Below, piece by piece: positions 50,504-55,377 of a stretch of 64,000 nucleotides of DNA. The notes below the pieces were generated by a model that made no database searches, was not told the DNA's origin, and saw nothing but the letters and a program-made list of their open reading frames with translations. The stretch is from Steroidobacter gossypii (GTDB taxonomy: Bacteria; Pseudomonadota; Gammaproteobacteria; Steroidobacterales; Steroidobacteraceae). Positions within the stretch are counted from its first letter, which is position 1; every line of letters begins with the position of its first letter. Where the stretch lies: the NCBI RefSeq assembly GCF_016801985.1, contig NZ_JAEVLS010000004.1, forward strand, positions 620,001 through 684,000. Reading direction: 5' to 3'. A program made the position numbers and the translations under genes.

Positions 50504-51598
50504 ATGACGACGGCCGATGCCCTCCATTTGTTTCTTGGCCACAGCGCGAGCGGACAAGCGATTCGCCGTGTCGACTGGGCCGCCACGCCGCTCGGTCCGA
50601 TCAACAGTTGGTCGAACTCGCTGCGCACCATGGTGGGCGCGGTGCTCGACTCCGCCTTTCCGCAGTGCCTGGTGTGGGGTCCACGGTACACCCTGATTCA
50701 CAACGACGCGTTTCTTCCCATCCTCGGCAAGAAGGCTCCGGCCATCGGCCGATCGTTCGATGAAGTCTGGGCGGAGGCGTGGCACGTCATCGGCTCGCTG
50801 GTGGAGCGCGCCTATGCCGGGGAGCCGACGTTCGTCGAGGATCACGAACTGATCATCGAGCGCGTTGGCAAGCCCGAGCAGGTCTATTTCACGTTCTGCT
50901 ACAGCCCGATTCGCGACGATGACGGACGCATCGCCGGCATGCTCGACACCGTGGTGGAAACGACCGAGAAAATGCGAGCTCAACAACAAGCCCGCCTGGT
51001 CAACGCCGAGCTGGCGCATCGGATGCAAAACACCCTGGCCGTGGTCGGCTCCATCGCCGATCAAACATTCCGCTGCTCGGTGTCGCTCGAAGAAGCTCGC
51101 ACCACCTTCTCACGGCGGATGAAAGCGCTGGGCCAGGCCCAACAGGTGTTGACGCAGTCGGACTGGAGGAGCGCTCCAATGGCGGCCATCATCGAGGGCG
51201 CGCTCACTCCGCACAGCACGGCGCCGGGCGAAATCTGCGCTCAGGGGCCGCCGGTGGAGCTGTCGGCGCGCCAGGCGCTGTCGCTGAGCATGGCCATCCA
51301 TGAGCTGGCCACCAATTCGATGAAGTACGGCGCGCTGTCGGTGGCCGGCGGCGAGGTGACCGTGCGCTGGGGACTCGAGCCCATCGAGGGCGACGAATGT
51401 CTGCACCTGACCTGGACCGAATCGGGCGGGCCGAAGGTGACGCCGCCGGCACGCCGTGGCTTCGGTTCACTACTGATTCAACAGGTTCTAGCCACCGACT
51501 TCGGCGGCAAAGTGATCTTGAGCTACCCGCCCGAAGGACTGCGCTTCGAGCTGCAAACCAGGCTGAGCAATCTCAACCCGGAGCGGGTTGCGCGTTGA
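50504..51598 (+). CDS. PAS-type sensor histidine kinase, HWE/HisKA_2 family
   Basis: A 364-residue soluble sensor kinase. An N-terminal PAS-like domain spans about 15-155 (WSNSLRTMVGAVLDSAFPQC; FCYSPIRDDDGRIAGMLDTV), a pattern common in light or redox sensors. The phosphoacceptor region is ELAHRMQNTLAVVGSIAD near 169-186, and the ATPase part has SMAIHELATNSMKYGALS and HLTWTESGGP, the HWE/HisKA_2 hallmarks. No transmembrane helix is seen. No response regulator gene lies next to it, so it is an orphan; such kinases often feed the general stress response. The following genes are small membrane proteins. Confidence 0.9.
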   Translation: MTTADALHLFLGHSASGQAIRRVDWAATPLGPINSWSNSLRTMVGAVLDSAFPQCLVWGPRYTLIHNDAFLPILGKKAPAIGRSFDEVWAEAWHVIGSLVERAYAGEPTFVEDHELIIERVGKPEQVYFTFCYSPIRDDDGRIAGMLDTVVETTEKMRAQQQARLVNAELAHRMQNTLAVVGSIADQTFRCSVSLEEARTTFSRRMKALGQAQQVLTQSDWRSAPMAAIIEGALTPHSTAPGEICAQGPPVELSARQALSLSMAIHELATNSMKYGALSVAGGEVTVRWGLEPIEGDECLHLTWTESGGPKVTPPARRGFGSLLIQQVLATDFGGKVILSYPPEGLRFELQTRLSNLNPERVAR

Positions 51599-51676
51599 GC
51601 GTGCAGGAACAATCCCGGTCGCTGCAGCATTCACAGTGATTGACGTCACTGACGCCCGGCGTTGCCCGGGACACTC

Positions 51677-52174
51677 ATGCGACAACCAGGCAGCAGCGCC
51701 GAAGCCCAACTCGGATTGCCAGAATATCGGGGCCATACCACGGCCGAGAAGTTTGCGTTTGCATTGCTGGTTGTGTTCATTCTCGCCGCCATCGCCGGTG
51801 TGTTTGGCGATGGTCCTCTGAGCCAGTCGACGGCCGCGAGCGGCGACGGGCAGATGCGCGTCGAGTATCAACGTTTCTGTCGGCGCCACGCTCAACAACT
51901 GCTGGATATCACAGTGCCCACGCAGGCCGGCGCGAACAGTGTCGAGCTGCGTGTGAACGCCGAGTATCTGCGCCGCGTGCAGATTACCGAGATCTTTCCG
52001 CAGCCGTTGCAATCCACTGTTCACCAAACCGGCCTGCTGCGTTTCGCGACCGACGGCTCCGGCGGAACCCTGCAGATCCGTATGCATCTCGAGGCGCAAC
52101 ATGCCGGGTCACAGCAGGCGCGTTTGAGCGCGGGCACGCAGACCGTCGACTTCAAACAGTTCGCTTATCCGTAA
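51677..52174 (+). CDS. Small membrane-anchored protein of unknown function
   Basis: A 165-residue protein with one transmembrane helix near residues 27-45 ([19 protein letters not shown]) and a C-terminal extracytoplasmic beta-rich domain ([40 protein letters not shown]). No family is recognised. It is followed 17 bases later by a DUF421 membrane protein, and the two probably form an operon that couples a periplasmic domain to the membrane protein. The ATG at 51677 is the most plausible start. Confidence 0.7.
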
Positions 52175-52191
52175 CTCGGGAGGGCCGCACC

Positions 52192-52653
52192 ATGGACTCC
52201 GTGCTTCGCGCCGCCGCCGTTTATTTGATCCTGCTGATCATCTTGCGCATCGCGGGCAAGCGCACGCTGGCGCAGGTCACCGTGTTCGATTTCATTCTGC
52301 TGCTGATCATCGGCGAGGCCACTCAACAGGCGCTGCTGGGCGAGGACTTTTCCATCATCAACGCGGCCATCGTGATCGGCACGCTGGTGCTGCTCGACAT
52401 CGGGCTGTCGGTGCTCAAGCAACGTTCCGAGGCGCTGGACCGCGTCATCGACGACAGCCCGGTCGTGATCGTCGATCACGGCAAGCTGTTGCGCGATCGC
52501 ATGGATCGCTCGCGCATCGACGAGCAGGAGATCCTGGTCGCGGCGCGCGAGCTGCACGGGCTGGAACGCCTGGAGCAGATCAAGTTCGCGGTGCTGGAGC
52601 GAAGCGGCGGCATCTCCATCGTGCCCGCCGAATCGTCCGGAAAGGATTCCTGA
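52192..52653 (+). CDS. DUF421 (YetF-like) membrane protein
   Basis: A 153-residue protein starting [20 protein letters not shown], with the DUF421 signature [20 protein letters not shown] then [11 protein letters not shown]. Two to three transmembrane helices are followed by a cytoplasmic small domain ([27 protein letters not shown]). The molecular role of this family is poorly known; Bacillus YetF relatives affect membrane or spore processes. A ribosome-binding GGGAGGG lies just upstream. It follows the single-helix protein gene by 17 bases. Confidence 0.88.
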
Positions 52654-52718
52654 GGCGCGCTGGAACGTAACGCCGCGTCGGGTGTTTGCTCTACATCCAG
52701 TGCTATCGGACCCTCCAG

Positions 52719-53846
52719 ATGCCCAGACGGAACGCGAAGAACTCCGACGACACGCCGTCATCGCTGCTGGCGCACGGCGGCAAAGTGCTGAGCCTGGTCG
52801 TCGTTGACGCCTACAATGCCGAGATGCGCAGCCCCGAAGGGTTCCTCGGCGATCGCGCCAGCCGCCGTGCATTTCAAGCGATCCTGGACGACTGGCGCGA
52901 TCGCGTCAGCCGCGCTGGCGACGATCCGCTCGGCGAACTGCCCAGCGAGGAGATGAGCAAGAAACAGCTCGACAAAATGCTCGCCCAGGGCGATGCGGAA
53001 GCCGCGGGCGTGATCCATGGCGCCATCGAAGAGTTCGCACAGGAGTTCGCGCAAGTCATCCGGCGTTTCTTGAAATTGAAGGGCTGGCAGAACACCGAAG
53101 CACTGGTGGTCGGCGGCGGGCTGCGTCAGAGCCGCATCGGCGAGCTGGCGATCGGGCGGACGGCGGTATTGTTGAAAGCGGACGGCGTCGATCTGGACAT
53201 CAAGCCGATTCATCACCACGCCGATCACGCCGGATTGATCGGCTGCATACAGCTGGTGCCCTCCTGGATCCTTTCCGGCCACGACAGCATCCTGGCCGTG
53301 GACATCGGCGGCAGCAACATTCGCGCCGGCATCGTCGAGCTGCGTCGCAAGAGGGCTGCGGATTTCTCTCAAGCCGCCGTGGGTCATTTCGAGCTGTGGC
53401 GACACAGCGAGGATCAACCCGATCGCGAAGACGCGGTGGAGCGGCTCATTCAGATGCTCAACAGCCTGATCCGTCGCGCCACCAAAGACGGCGCCAACCT
53501 CGCTCCGTTCATCGGCATCGGCTGCCCTGGCGTCATTCGCTCCGACGGCTCCATCGAGCGCGGTGGCCAGAACCTGCCCGGCGACTGGGAGCAAAAGAGT
53601 TTCAATCTCCCCGAGAAGTTGCGCGCCGCCATCCCTAAGATCGGCGATCACGAGACAGTCATCGTCATGCATAACGACGCTGTCGTGCAGGGCCTGAGCG
53701 AGGCGCCGAGCATGCGCGACTACGAGCACTGGGGCGTGCTGACGATCGGCACCGGATTGGGCAATGCCCGCTTCACCAATCGCAGCGACGAGGACGACAA
53801 GGACGAAGAGGAAGAAGAGACGGACGACTCCGACGACGAGGAATAG
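52719..53846 (+). CDS. ROK-family protein with circularly permuted motif order
   Basis: A 375-residue protein. The motifs of the ROK sugar-kinase/regulator family are all present but in a changed order. The usual C-terminal part comes first: a helical stretch with LAQGDAEAAGVIHGAIEEFA near 88-107, LVVGGGL at 129-135 and ADHAGLIGC at 168-176. The usual N-terminal part follows: AVDIGGSNIRAG at 193-204 (phosphate 1), IGCPGVI at 267-273, NLPGDW at 285-290, HNDAVVQGLSE at 318-328 and IGTGLGNA at 343-350 (phosphate 2). The zinc-finger region is missing, and the protein ends in an acidic tail rich in D and E. The catalytic aspartate of HND is kept. The substrate is unknown. Confidence 0.85.
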   Translation: MPRRNAKNSDDTPSSLLAHGGKVLSLVVVDAYNAEMRSPEGFLGDRASRRAFQAILDDWRDRVSRAGDDPLGELPSEEMSKKQLDKMLAQGDAEAAGVIHGAIEEFAQEFAQVIRRFLKLKGWQNTEALVVGGGLRQSRIGELAIGRTAVLLKADGVDLDIKPIHHHADHAGLIGCIQLVPSWILSGHDSILAVDIGGSNIRAGIVELRRKRAADFSQAAVGHFELWRHSEDQPDREDAVERLIQMLNSLIRRATKDGANLAPFIGIGCPGVIRSDGSIERGGQNLPGDWEQKSFNLPEKLRAAIPKIGDHETVIVMHNDAVVQGLSEAPSMRDYEHWGVLTIGTGLGNARFTNRSDEDDKDEEEEETDDSDDEE

Positions 53847-53878
53847 CCTCGTCACTGCGCTCTTTCGGCGCGCTCGCC

Positions 53879-54301
53879 CTACCCTGGCACGCTCAGCTTG
53901 TTTGTTTGCTCTTTGCGCCCGAACGACAACGCCAACAGCGCTCCCACCACGCCCGCCACATACGGCAACGTCGCCTGGCTCGCAGCGATCCCGCTGCTCC
54001 AGTTCACATAAGCTTCGATCTGATAGAAGTTCAGTAACAAAAGCATGATGTACGCCGCCAGGAACGCGCCAAACCACCGACCTTTCCGAAACGGCCCAAA
54101 CAACCCGACCAACGCGAGCATCACGCCAAAACGTGGTAAACACAGAATGAGAAGCTGCATGGCAACCGCCCACTGGGAAGAAACCACCACGAGCTCAAAC
54201 ATAATCTGTGGCAAAAGGAACAACTCTGCCGCCACAGCTGCCGCTGTCAGCAACAGCAACCGTCGTCGTTCAGTGTCTCCGTTGCCCACGATGATCTCCA
54301 T
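53879..54301 (-). CDS. Small integral membrane protein of unknown function
   Basis: A 140-residue protein beginning MEIIVGNGDTERRRLLLLTA, with four hydrophobic segments (TAAAVAAELFLLPQIMFELV; VAMQLLILCLPRFGVMLALV; FLAAYIMLLLLNFY; YVAGVVGALLALSFG). No family is recognised. It is convergent with the ROK-like gene, 32 bases away, and no functional context is evident. The ATG at 54301 is preferred to an in-frame upstream start because the hydrophobic architecture begins right after it. The gene may be a membrane sensor accessory or an unneeded remnant; this is not known. Confidence 0.65.
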   Translation of the reverse strand: MEIIVGNGDTERRRLLLLTAAAVAAELFLLPQIMFELVVVSSQWAVAMQLLILCLPRFGVMLALVGLFGPFRKGRWFGAFLAAYIMLLLLNFYQIEAYVNWSSGIAASQATLPYVAGVVGALLALSFGRKEQTNKLSVPG

Positions 54302-54840: not shown

Positions 54841-55377
54841 ATGGCGAAGAACAAAGATGCCGCGCTGATGCCGGTGGAGCACATCTCGAGATCGATTCTA
54901 GTCCTGCGTCGACAACGGGTCTTGCTGGATCGCGATCTGGCCGAGATTTACGGCGTGAGCACCGGCCGGCTGAACGAGGCGGTCAAGCGCAACGCGGCTC
55001 GCTTTCCCGAGGACTTCATGTTCCAGATCACCGAGCCGGAGCTTCAGAACTTGAGATCGCAGATTGCGATTTCAAGCTGGGGCGGTCGCCGCTACCGACC
55101 TTTCGTCTTCACCGAATACGGCGCGATCCAAGCCGCCAACGTCCTGCGCTCACCGCGCGCCATCGAGATGAGTCTCTATGTTGTGCGCGCCTTCGTGCAG
55201 CTTCGAGAGATGCTAGTCTCGAACAAGGAGCTGGCCCACCGCCTCGATGAGCTGGAACGCAAGCTCTCCACGCACGACCAGGCCATTACCGGCATCCTCA
55301 AGACCATCCGCGAACTCATGCACACGCCGGCACCGAAGAAGCGGCCGATCGGGTTCACAGCGAACCTCGATGAGTAG
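54841..55377 (+). CDS. ORF6N-domain (KilA-N-related) DNA-binding protein
   Basis: A 178-residue protein with an N-terminal ORF6N domain at about 12-100 (SILVLRRQRVLLDRDLAEIY, GVSTGRLNEAVKRN, then FVFTEYGAIQAANVL) and a coiled-coil C-terminus (ELAHRLDELERKLSTHDQAI). ORF6N proteins are related to phage and poxvirus DNA-binding regulators and are spread by mobile elements in bacteria. No integrase or phage gene is nearby, so it is likely a relic of past transfer or a stand-alone regulator. Translation is supported by AGGAGGAGG just before the start. Confidence 0.87.
   Translation: MAKNKDAALMPVEHISRSILVLRRQRVLLDRDLAEIYGVSTGRLNEAVKRNAARFPEDFMFQITEPELQNLRSQIAISSWGGRRYRPFVFTEYGAIQAANVLRSPRAIEMSLYVVRAFVQLREMLVSNKELAHRLDELERKLSTHDQAITGILKTIRELMHTPAPKKRPIGFTANLDE

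Follow-up and report, generated by a model that had tools for sequence, protein, structure and literature searches.

A circularly permuted ROK-family protein encoded by Steroidobacter gossypii

The window, a stretch of 64,000 nucleotides from the Steroidobacter gossypii genome, contains an open reading frame (ORF) of 375 amino acids plus stop, whose product was found to be a ROK-family protein with its two halves in exchanged order (Table 1). Circular permutation, proposed in an earlier note on this DNA, is strongly supported by a collinear profile-profile match after rotation, a rotation scan with its peak at residue 190, relatives with the same order and a structure model in which the chain forms one unit. 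We consider it reasonably probable that the protein is a permuted ROK-type kinase, putatively active on a sugar or sugar-like substrate and made under stress.

Table 1. Features of the permuted ROK gene and its upstream region, in window coordinates
Feature	Position	Strand	Evidence
EcfG-type promoter-like motif, GGAAC-N16-TGTT	52662..52686	+	relaxed pattern
Circularly permuted ROK-family protein	52719..53846	+	Pfam, motifs, profile alignment, rotation scan
Equivalent of the ROK C-terminal part, residues 17-185 (third strand of second domain, helices, GGG, AGLIG)	52767..53273	+	
HG, residues 19-20, near the expected place of ExGH; Glu and zinc cysteines absent	52773..52778	+	H19 46/46
GGG adenosine-side motif, residues 132-134	53112..53120	+	46/46
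AGLIG, canonical ROK C-terminal motif, residues 171-175	53229..53243	+	A171 41/46, G172 45/46, G175 46/46
ROK N-terminal half plus phosphate-2 hairpin, residues 186-356	53274..53786	+	Pfam, profile alignment
DIGGSN phosphate-1 loop, residues 195-200	53301..53318	+	D195, G197, G198, N200 46/46
GQNLPG sugar-site signature, residues 283-288	53565..53582	+	Q284-G288 46/46
HND with putative catalytic Asp320, residues 318-320	53670..53678	+	46/46
GTGLG phosphate-2 loop, residues 344-348	53748..53762	+	46/46
Acidic C-terminal tail, residues 357-375, unconserved, mostly low model confidence	53787..53843	+	alignment, AlphaFold

Gene model and order of the two halves

The ORF is a real gene, as judged from its full-length relatives and the shared ATG start. 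Almost every relative in the alignment begins at the ATG at 52719 (M1 in at least 90%); an alternative TTG start at 52686 would lengthen the ORF and overlaps the promoter-like motif. No terminator-like fold was found at 53840-53900. The protein matched the Pfam ROK profile (PF00480) with 34.3 bits against a cut-off of 22.9, the best stretch being residues 192-353, which corresponds to profile positions 2-140, and 18 of the 19 members of one family alignment matched the same profile at E up to 1. The segment before this stretch is about equally long and holds the GD (residues 91-92), GGG and AGLIG motifs, which normally close a ROK protein; GCPG was located at residues 268-271. The swapped order had been read from such motifs in the earlier note; their positions were as described there, and the profile-profile test agreed. 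The roles assigned to residues in the permuted family presumably follow those in ROK structures.

A family profile of 46 members (residues 15-358) was compared by hhalign with a profile of 26 canonical ROKs. The 46-member set contained no duplicate loci, and L007, L008, L021, L023 and L036 were excluded from it as interrupted or partial. For the canonical set, 26 of 32 loci were kept; L030, L031, L062, L086, L088 and L089 were dropped because their long central ORF contained no [DE]xGG[ST]-type motif. In native order, residues 191-355 matched ROK columns 7-147 (E 6.9e-10), and a separate second match aligned residues 76-182 with ROK columns 204-303 (E 1e-6), so the part that was expected to be the ROK C-terminal half does align there. 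When the halves were exchanged, a single collinear match over columns 7-303 was obtained, with 274 aligned columns, an E value of 1.1e-14 and a score of 107.7; residues 17-75 aligned just loosely in the rotated profile. By rotating the profile every 20 columns, a maximum score of 108.3 was reached with the break before residue 190, declining on both sides, compared with 75.2 in native order. Ten column shuffles scored 12.3-21.1 and the reversed profile scored 16.1. Chance motif order was rejected on the basis of the profile-profile alignment, the rotation scan and these shuffled and reversed controls. These results demonstrated the permutation at the level of sequence profiles. Single-sequence HMMER, which is much less sensitive than profile-profile comparison, barely profited from rotation (Pfam score from 34.3 to 35.0 bits).

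The protein would derive from a ROK-type (actin-like/ASKHA) kinase through natural circular permutation. The break, placed at the phosphate-2 loop in the earlier note, was located just after the phosphate-2 hairpin. It would fall inside the second actin-like domain, between this hairpin and the strand that normally comes next, the ExGH/zinc site of canonical ROKs. The new C-terminus would close the phosphate-2 hairpin, the new N-terminus would open the following strand, and a short linker around residues 180-190 would connect the former N- and C-termini. The permutation may have come about by tandem duplication with loss of the outer halves; among the matches, no intermediate form was seen.

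Structure prediction, proposed earlier as a check, was performed by AlphaFold2 with 14 sequences. The best model was one unit with a pLDDT of 80.6 and a pTM of 0.81; the pLDDT ran from 80.6 down to 67.7 across the five models, and the low-confidence stretches (at least 3 residues below 50) were residues 1-22 and 359-375. According to the DSSP listing read in rotated order, the first domain of the model is b-b-b-a-b-a-b-a (residues 190-326). The second domain consists of strands 337-343 and 347-354, then 27-32, helices, and 128-133, 139-154, 160-163 and 168-179, with two strands coming from the C-terminal end of the chain and one from its N-terminal end. Because the second domain draws strands from both chain ends in the model, the two halves should fold together, and we infer from the model that they form one unit. 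In sequential Foldseek searches, the top match was the exopolyphosphatase 8jgx (E 3.6e-5), which is not a ROK. Matches to ROK structures spanned roughly half of the chain (2yhw, 172 columns at 3.0 Å; 2qm1, 169 columns at 3.0 Å), and those to tandem hexokinases spanned 404-439 columns with an rmsd of at least 30 Å. Half-chain matches of the model would be expected of a permutant, yet they are short of proof.

Conserved residues and candidate function

The phosphate-1, catalytic ND, phosphate-2 and adenosine motifs of the ROK family were all found in 46 of the 46 permuted members. The invariant residues were D195, G197, G198, N200, C269-P270-G271, Q284-N285-L286-P287-G288 and H318-N319-D320, and also G344-T345-G346-L347-G348, G132-G133-G134 and D169. 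Another three residues invariant in all 46 sequences, H19, W227 and H229, were specific to the permuted family. The zinc motif CxCGxxGC was found in 0 of 46 permuted members compared with 24 of 26 canonical ROKs, some of which also lack it. The loss of this motif, as observed in the earlier note, was confirmed for the S. gossypii protein, but since the motif is absent in the whole 46-member set, this protein is not unusual in lacking it. ExGH, the sugar-binding motif of ROK kinases, was present in 26 of 26 canonical ROKs and absent from its site in the 46 members; the sole match among them, at residue 220 of L010, lay outside the site. The missing ExGH/zinc module coincides with the location of the new chain ends. 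As ExGH is missing, catalysis on hexoses is not assured. The long acidic tail, also pointed out earlier, is present in the S. gossypii protein but is a local trait. Family tails comprise 0-32 residues and several are lysine-rich, and an acidic tail as a family feature was rejected owing to this variability across the 46 members.

The earlier note had left it between kinase and sugar sensor. Because the catalytic and nucleotide motifs are invariant (46/46), the kinase is favoured and the sensor less so. A sugar or sugar-like substrate would most likely still be phosphorylated, with Asp320 as the base. The nucleotide would be held by DIGG, GTGLG and GGG, and the substrate by GQNLPG together with W227, H229 and H19, which may stand in for ExGH and zinc. 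The sugar phosphate would be supplied during stress, under the general stress sigma factor. This is what we infer for catalysis, substrate, regulation of the S. gossypii gene and physiological role.

That the permuted ROK has turned into a non-catalytic sugar sensor or regulator is unlikely, although it deserves weighing. ExGH and the zinc motif are missing, ROK repressors form a class (5f7r was among the fold matches), and the tail, charged and variable, could be a docking site for a partner. However, none of the 46 members deviates at the catalytic Asp, the phosphate loops or GGG, features for which a pure sensor would have no use. Pfam lists no DNA-binding domain, and as to a winged helix, residues 1-22 are of low confidence and a ROK strand follows at 27-32.

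Polyphosphate-glucose phosphotransferases (PPGKs) are not known to have a zinc motif, and a permuted polyphosphate-dependent or dual-donor glucokinase could have descended from a PPGK-like ROK already without zinc; we regard this as rather improbable. PPGK (NF045942) was the top NCBIfam model, with 24.7 bits in native order and 25.7 bits rotated against a cut-off of 250, and among PDB entries the rotated profile matched the polyphosphate/ATP-glucomannokinase 1woq best (E 0.0027, N-terminal ROK half only). Yet the rotated S. gossypii protein scored 24.2 bits with ROK glucokinase, a margin of 1.5 bits, and 16.5 and 12.3 bits with BglK and NanK, respectively, all far below cut-off. Across 11 members, the BglK and allose kinase models matched 10 each and PPGK 8, and the half profile preferred 6q26 (E 0.00073) over 1woq (E 0.0053) as its best PDB match.

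That two unrelated half-domains with short motifs in common were fused, with no permutation, can practically be dismissed. In favour of a fusion, the N-terminal half gave chance-like HMMER matches in the PDB, none of them significant, and on its own matched Pfam ROK weakly in the S. gossypii protein (profile 179-291, E 0.041) and at E up to 1 in just 6 of the 15 members (4.7e-4 at best). Against it stand the alignment of residues 76-182 with canonical ROK columns 204-303 at E 1e-6, the single collinear alignment obtained after rotation, the rotation scan with shuffles and the one-unit model.

Relatives, promoter motif and gene neighbourhood

The search for same-order homologues, another check proposed earlier, was successful. 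Among 98 related genomes, 7 carried same-order relatives, all within the genus and with the source genome counted; one of them (G001) was in two pieces. In named genomes, a scan with six peptide patterns from one sequence as query detected the same order in 15 loci, of which 2 were interrupted by a gap or frameshift; the sources include Steroidobacter, Peristeroidobacter, Roseomonas, Siccirubricoccus, Tardiphaga and Rhizobiales. Split-gene forms were rejected, as L021 is broken by a run of N and L023 by a frameshift in a metagenome assembly. There were 206 matching plasmid records, mostly from Rhizobium (111) and Sinorhizobium (79), and 204 of the 206 covered at least 80% of the query. A partial, apparently degenerate permuted-ROK remnant was seen on a Bradyrhizobium barranii plasmid (L036:6001-6297). 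Whole-genome searches, which spanned Pseudomonadota, revealed the permuted ROK in 22 of 398 genomes. It was found in 2 of 369 genomes sampled from the class of the window (source genome counted) and in 15 of 385 from a second class, that of G125, where G1089 gave a partial match at positions 276-355.

Identity of the relatives to the S. gossypii protein ranged from about 87% down to 45%. No native-order member at such similarity was among the relatives listed, which suggests that the permutation may have arisen in one old event. The database label 'ROK family protein' was attached to 19 of 19 feature-bearing rows of the plasmid matches and, in a second set with overlapping rows, to 11 of 12, the remaining row being labelled 'hypothetical protein'. 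This label conceals the swapped half order.

The published EcfG promoter motif is given as GAAC-N16,17-C/GGTT in the available text of PMC4814048. Within 150 bases upstream, it was found in 8 of 26 representatives (0.24 expected) and in 13 of 46 unique proteins (0.39 expected). A relaxed motif, GGAAC-N16,17-NGTT, chosen after the S. gossypii gene had been seen, preceded 18 of 46 family genes compared with 0.36 expected; among 399 other ORFs from these loci, uncurated controls chosen by length from ATG, it preceded 8. The permuted family is enriched in the promoter motif, with 28 of the 46 genes lacking even the relaxed form. The motif in S. gossypii fits the relaxed pattern alone because its -10 element, TGTT, differs from the published C/GGTT. 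In the whole window, 5 matches to a similar pattern were counted against 2.99 expected; therefore the single match before the permuted ROK is not significant alone and could be due to chance.

NepR was detected in the S. gossypii genome by Pfam (E 1.7e-13). Its locus (L148:1897-5597; G000:C11:1633400-1639400) contains phyR-like, ecfG-like and histidine-kinase ORFs as identified by eye; the motif occurs there 3 times in 6 kb (0.24 expected), once before the probable nepR start. Of the family-bearing genomes, 17 of 22 had NepR and 5 gave no match, and overall 92 of 398 Pseudomonadota genomes had it. The motif enrichment and NepR point to probable expression of the permuted ROK under control of the general stress sigma factor. 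Within the genus, 13 of 14 genomes had NepR and 7 of 14 had the permuted ROK, and no tracking of the two was seen. The NepR counts, in the 22 family-bearing genomes as in the genus, speak against a tight link. Among the 92 NepR-bearing genomes, S. gossypii was the sole one labelled as its own or the same class. EcfG is called exclusive to Alphaproteobacteria in the available text of PMC3892343. In the portions of the general-stress literature available, ROK is named solely for the transcription factor SMa2004.

A conserved operon was rejected: none was found among 44 loci, and the neighbours were unconserved beyond close relatives. The recurrent neighbour clusters in these loci were SDR genes (10), otsB-like genes (7) and ferritin-like/DUF892-like genes (6). 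Seven annotated plasmid regions contained an intact copy of the permuted ROK gene, and in 5 of them (four from Rhizobium and one from Shinella) it was oriented divergently from otsB; two further regions carry no annotation and are outside the 7. The four Rhizobium loci had the motif on the ROK strand, and the Shinella locus did not. R. etli otsB is reported to be (p)ppGpp-induced in the available text of PMC3188799. Upstream of the permuted ROK in the window lies ORF 50504-51598, which encodes a PAS domain and an HWE histidine kinase (PF07536), and ORF 51640-52653 sits between the two. HWE/HisKA2 kinases are described as feeding the alphaproteobacterial general stress response (PMC12148442, available text). 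DUF892/YciE-like stress genes, as identified by eye, lie close to the permuted ROK at L020:1578-2087 and L103:7830-8342 and have an EcfG-like motif of their own; a relative in L024 is annotated as ferritin-like. A stand-alone ORF6N-domain protein (PF10543), a domain often found in phages, is encoded near the permuted ROK at 54841-55377 of the window.

Comparison with known systems

No description of a permuted ROK, glucokinase or ASKHA protein was found in the open-licence literature. We tentatively propose that this is the first described natural permutant of a ROK/ASKHA sugar kinase. One old event may have put the chain ends at the lip of the sugar site, where ExGH and zinc are missing, and made the pocket accessible to a new substrate, probably one other than glucose; a stress-induced family would then have spread by plasmids and chromosomes through Pseudomonadota. 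A conserved natural permutant would mean that the actin-like kinase fold can accommodate new chain ends within its second domain, beside the active site. These ends sit where zinc and sugar normally bind, so the effect of moved ends on substrate becomes testable, and the link to a stress promoter gives a physiological setting.

With the ROK family (glucokinases, N-acetylmannosamine kinase and BglK), the permuted proteins share phosphate-1, the catalytic ND, phosphate-2, GGG and AGLIG, and they are collinear with it once rotated. They differ in the swapped half order, in the absence of the ExGH and zinc motifs and in their own signatures, WRHADD, GQNLPG-W, HNDAVVQGLS and GFxGDRAS. 1woq and PPGK, which gave the rotated profile and the S. 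gossypii protein their best matches in the PDB and in NCBIfam, respectively, have the native order. The permuted protein scores far below the PPGK cut-off. ADP-dependent glucokinase has a ribokinase-like fold. A non-sequential segment swap between this enzyme and 2-dehydro-3-deoxygluconokinase is described in the available text of PMC2213659; that swap is local, whereas the permutation here involves the whole chain, and the fold is different. The alphaproteobacterial PhyR-NepR-EcfG regulon is resembled in that its promoter motif stands before part of the family and NepR is encoded in the same genome.
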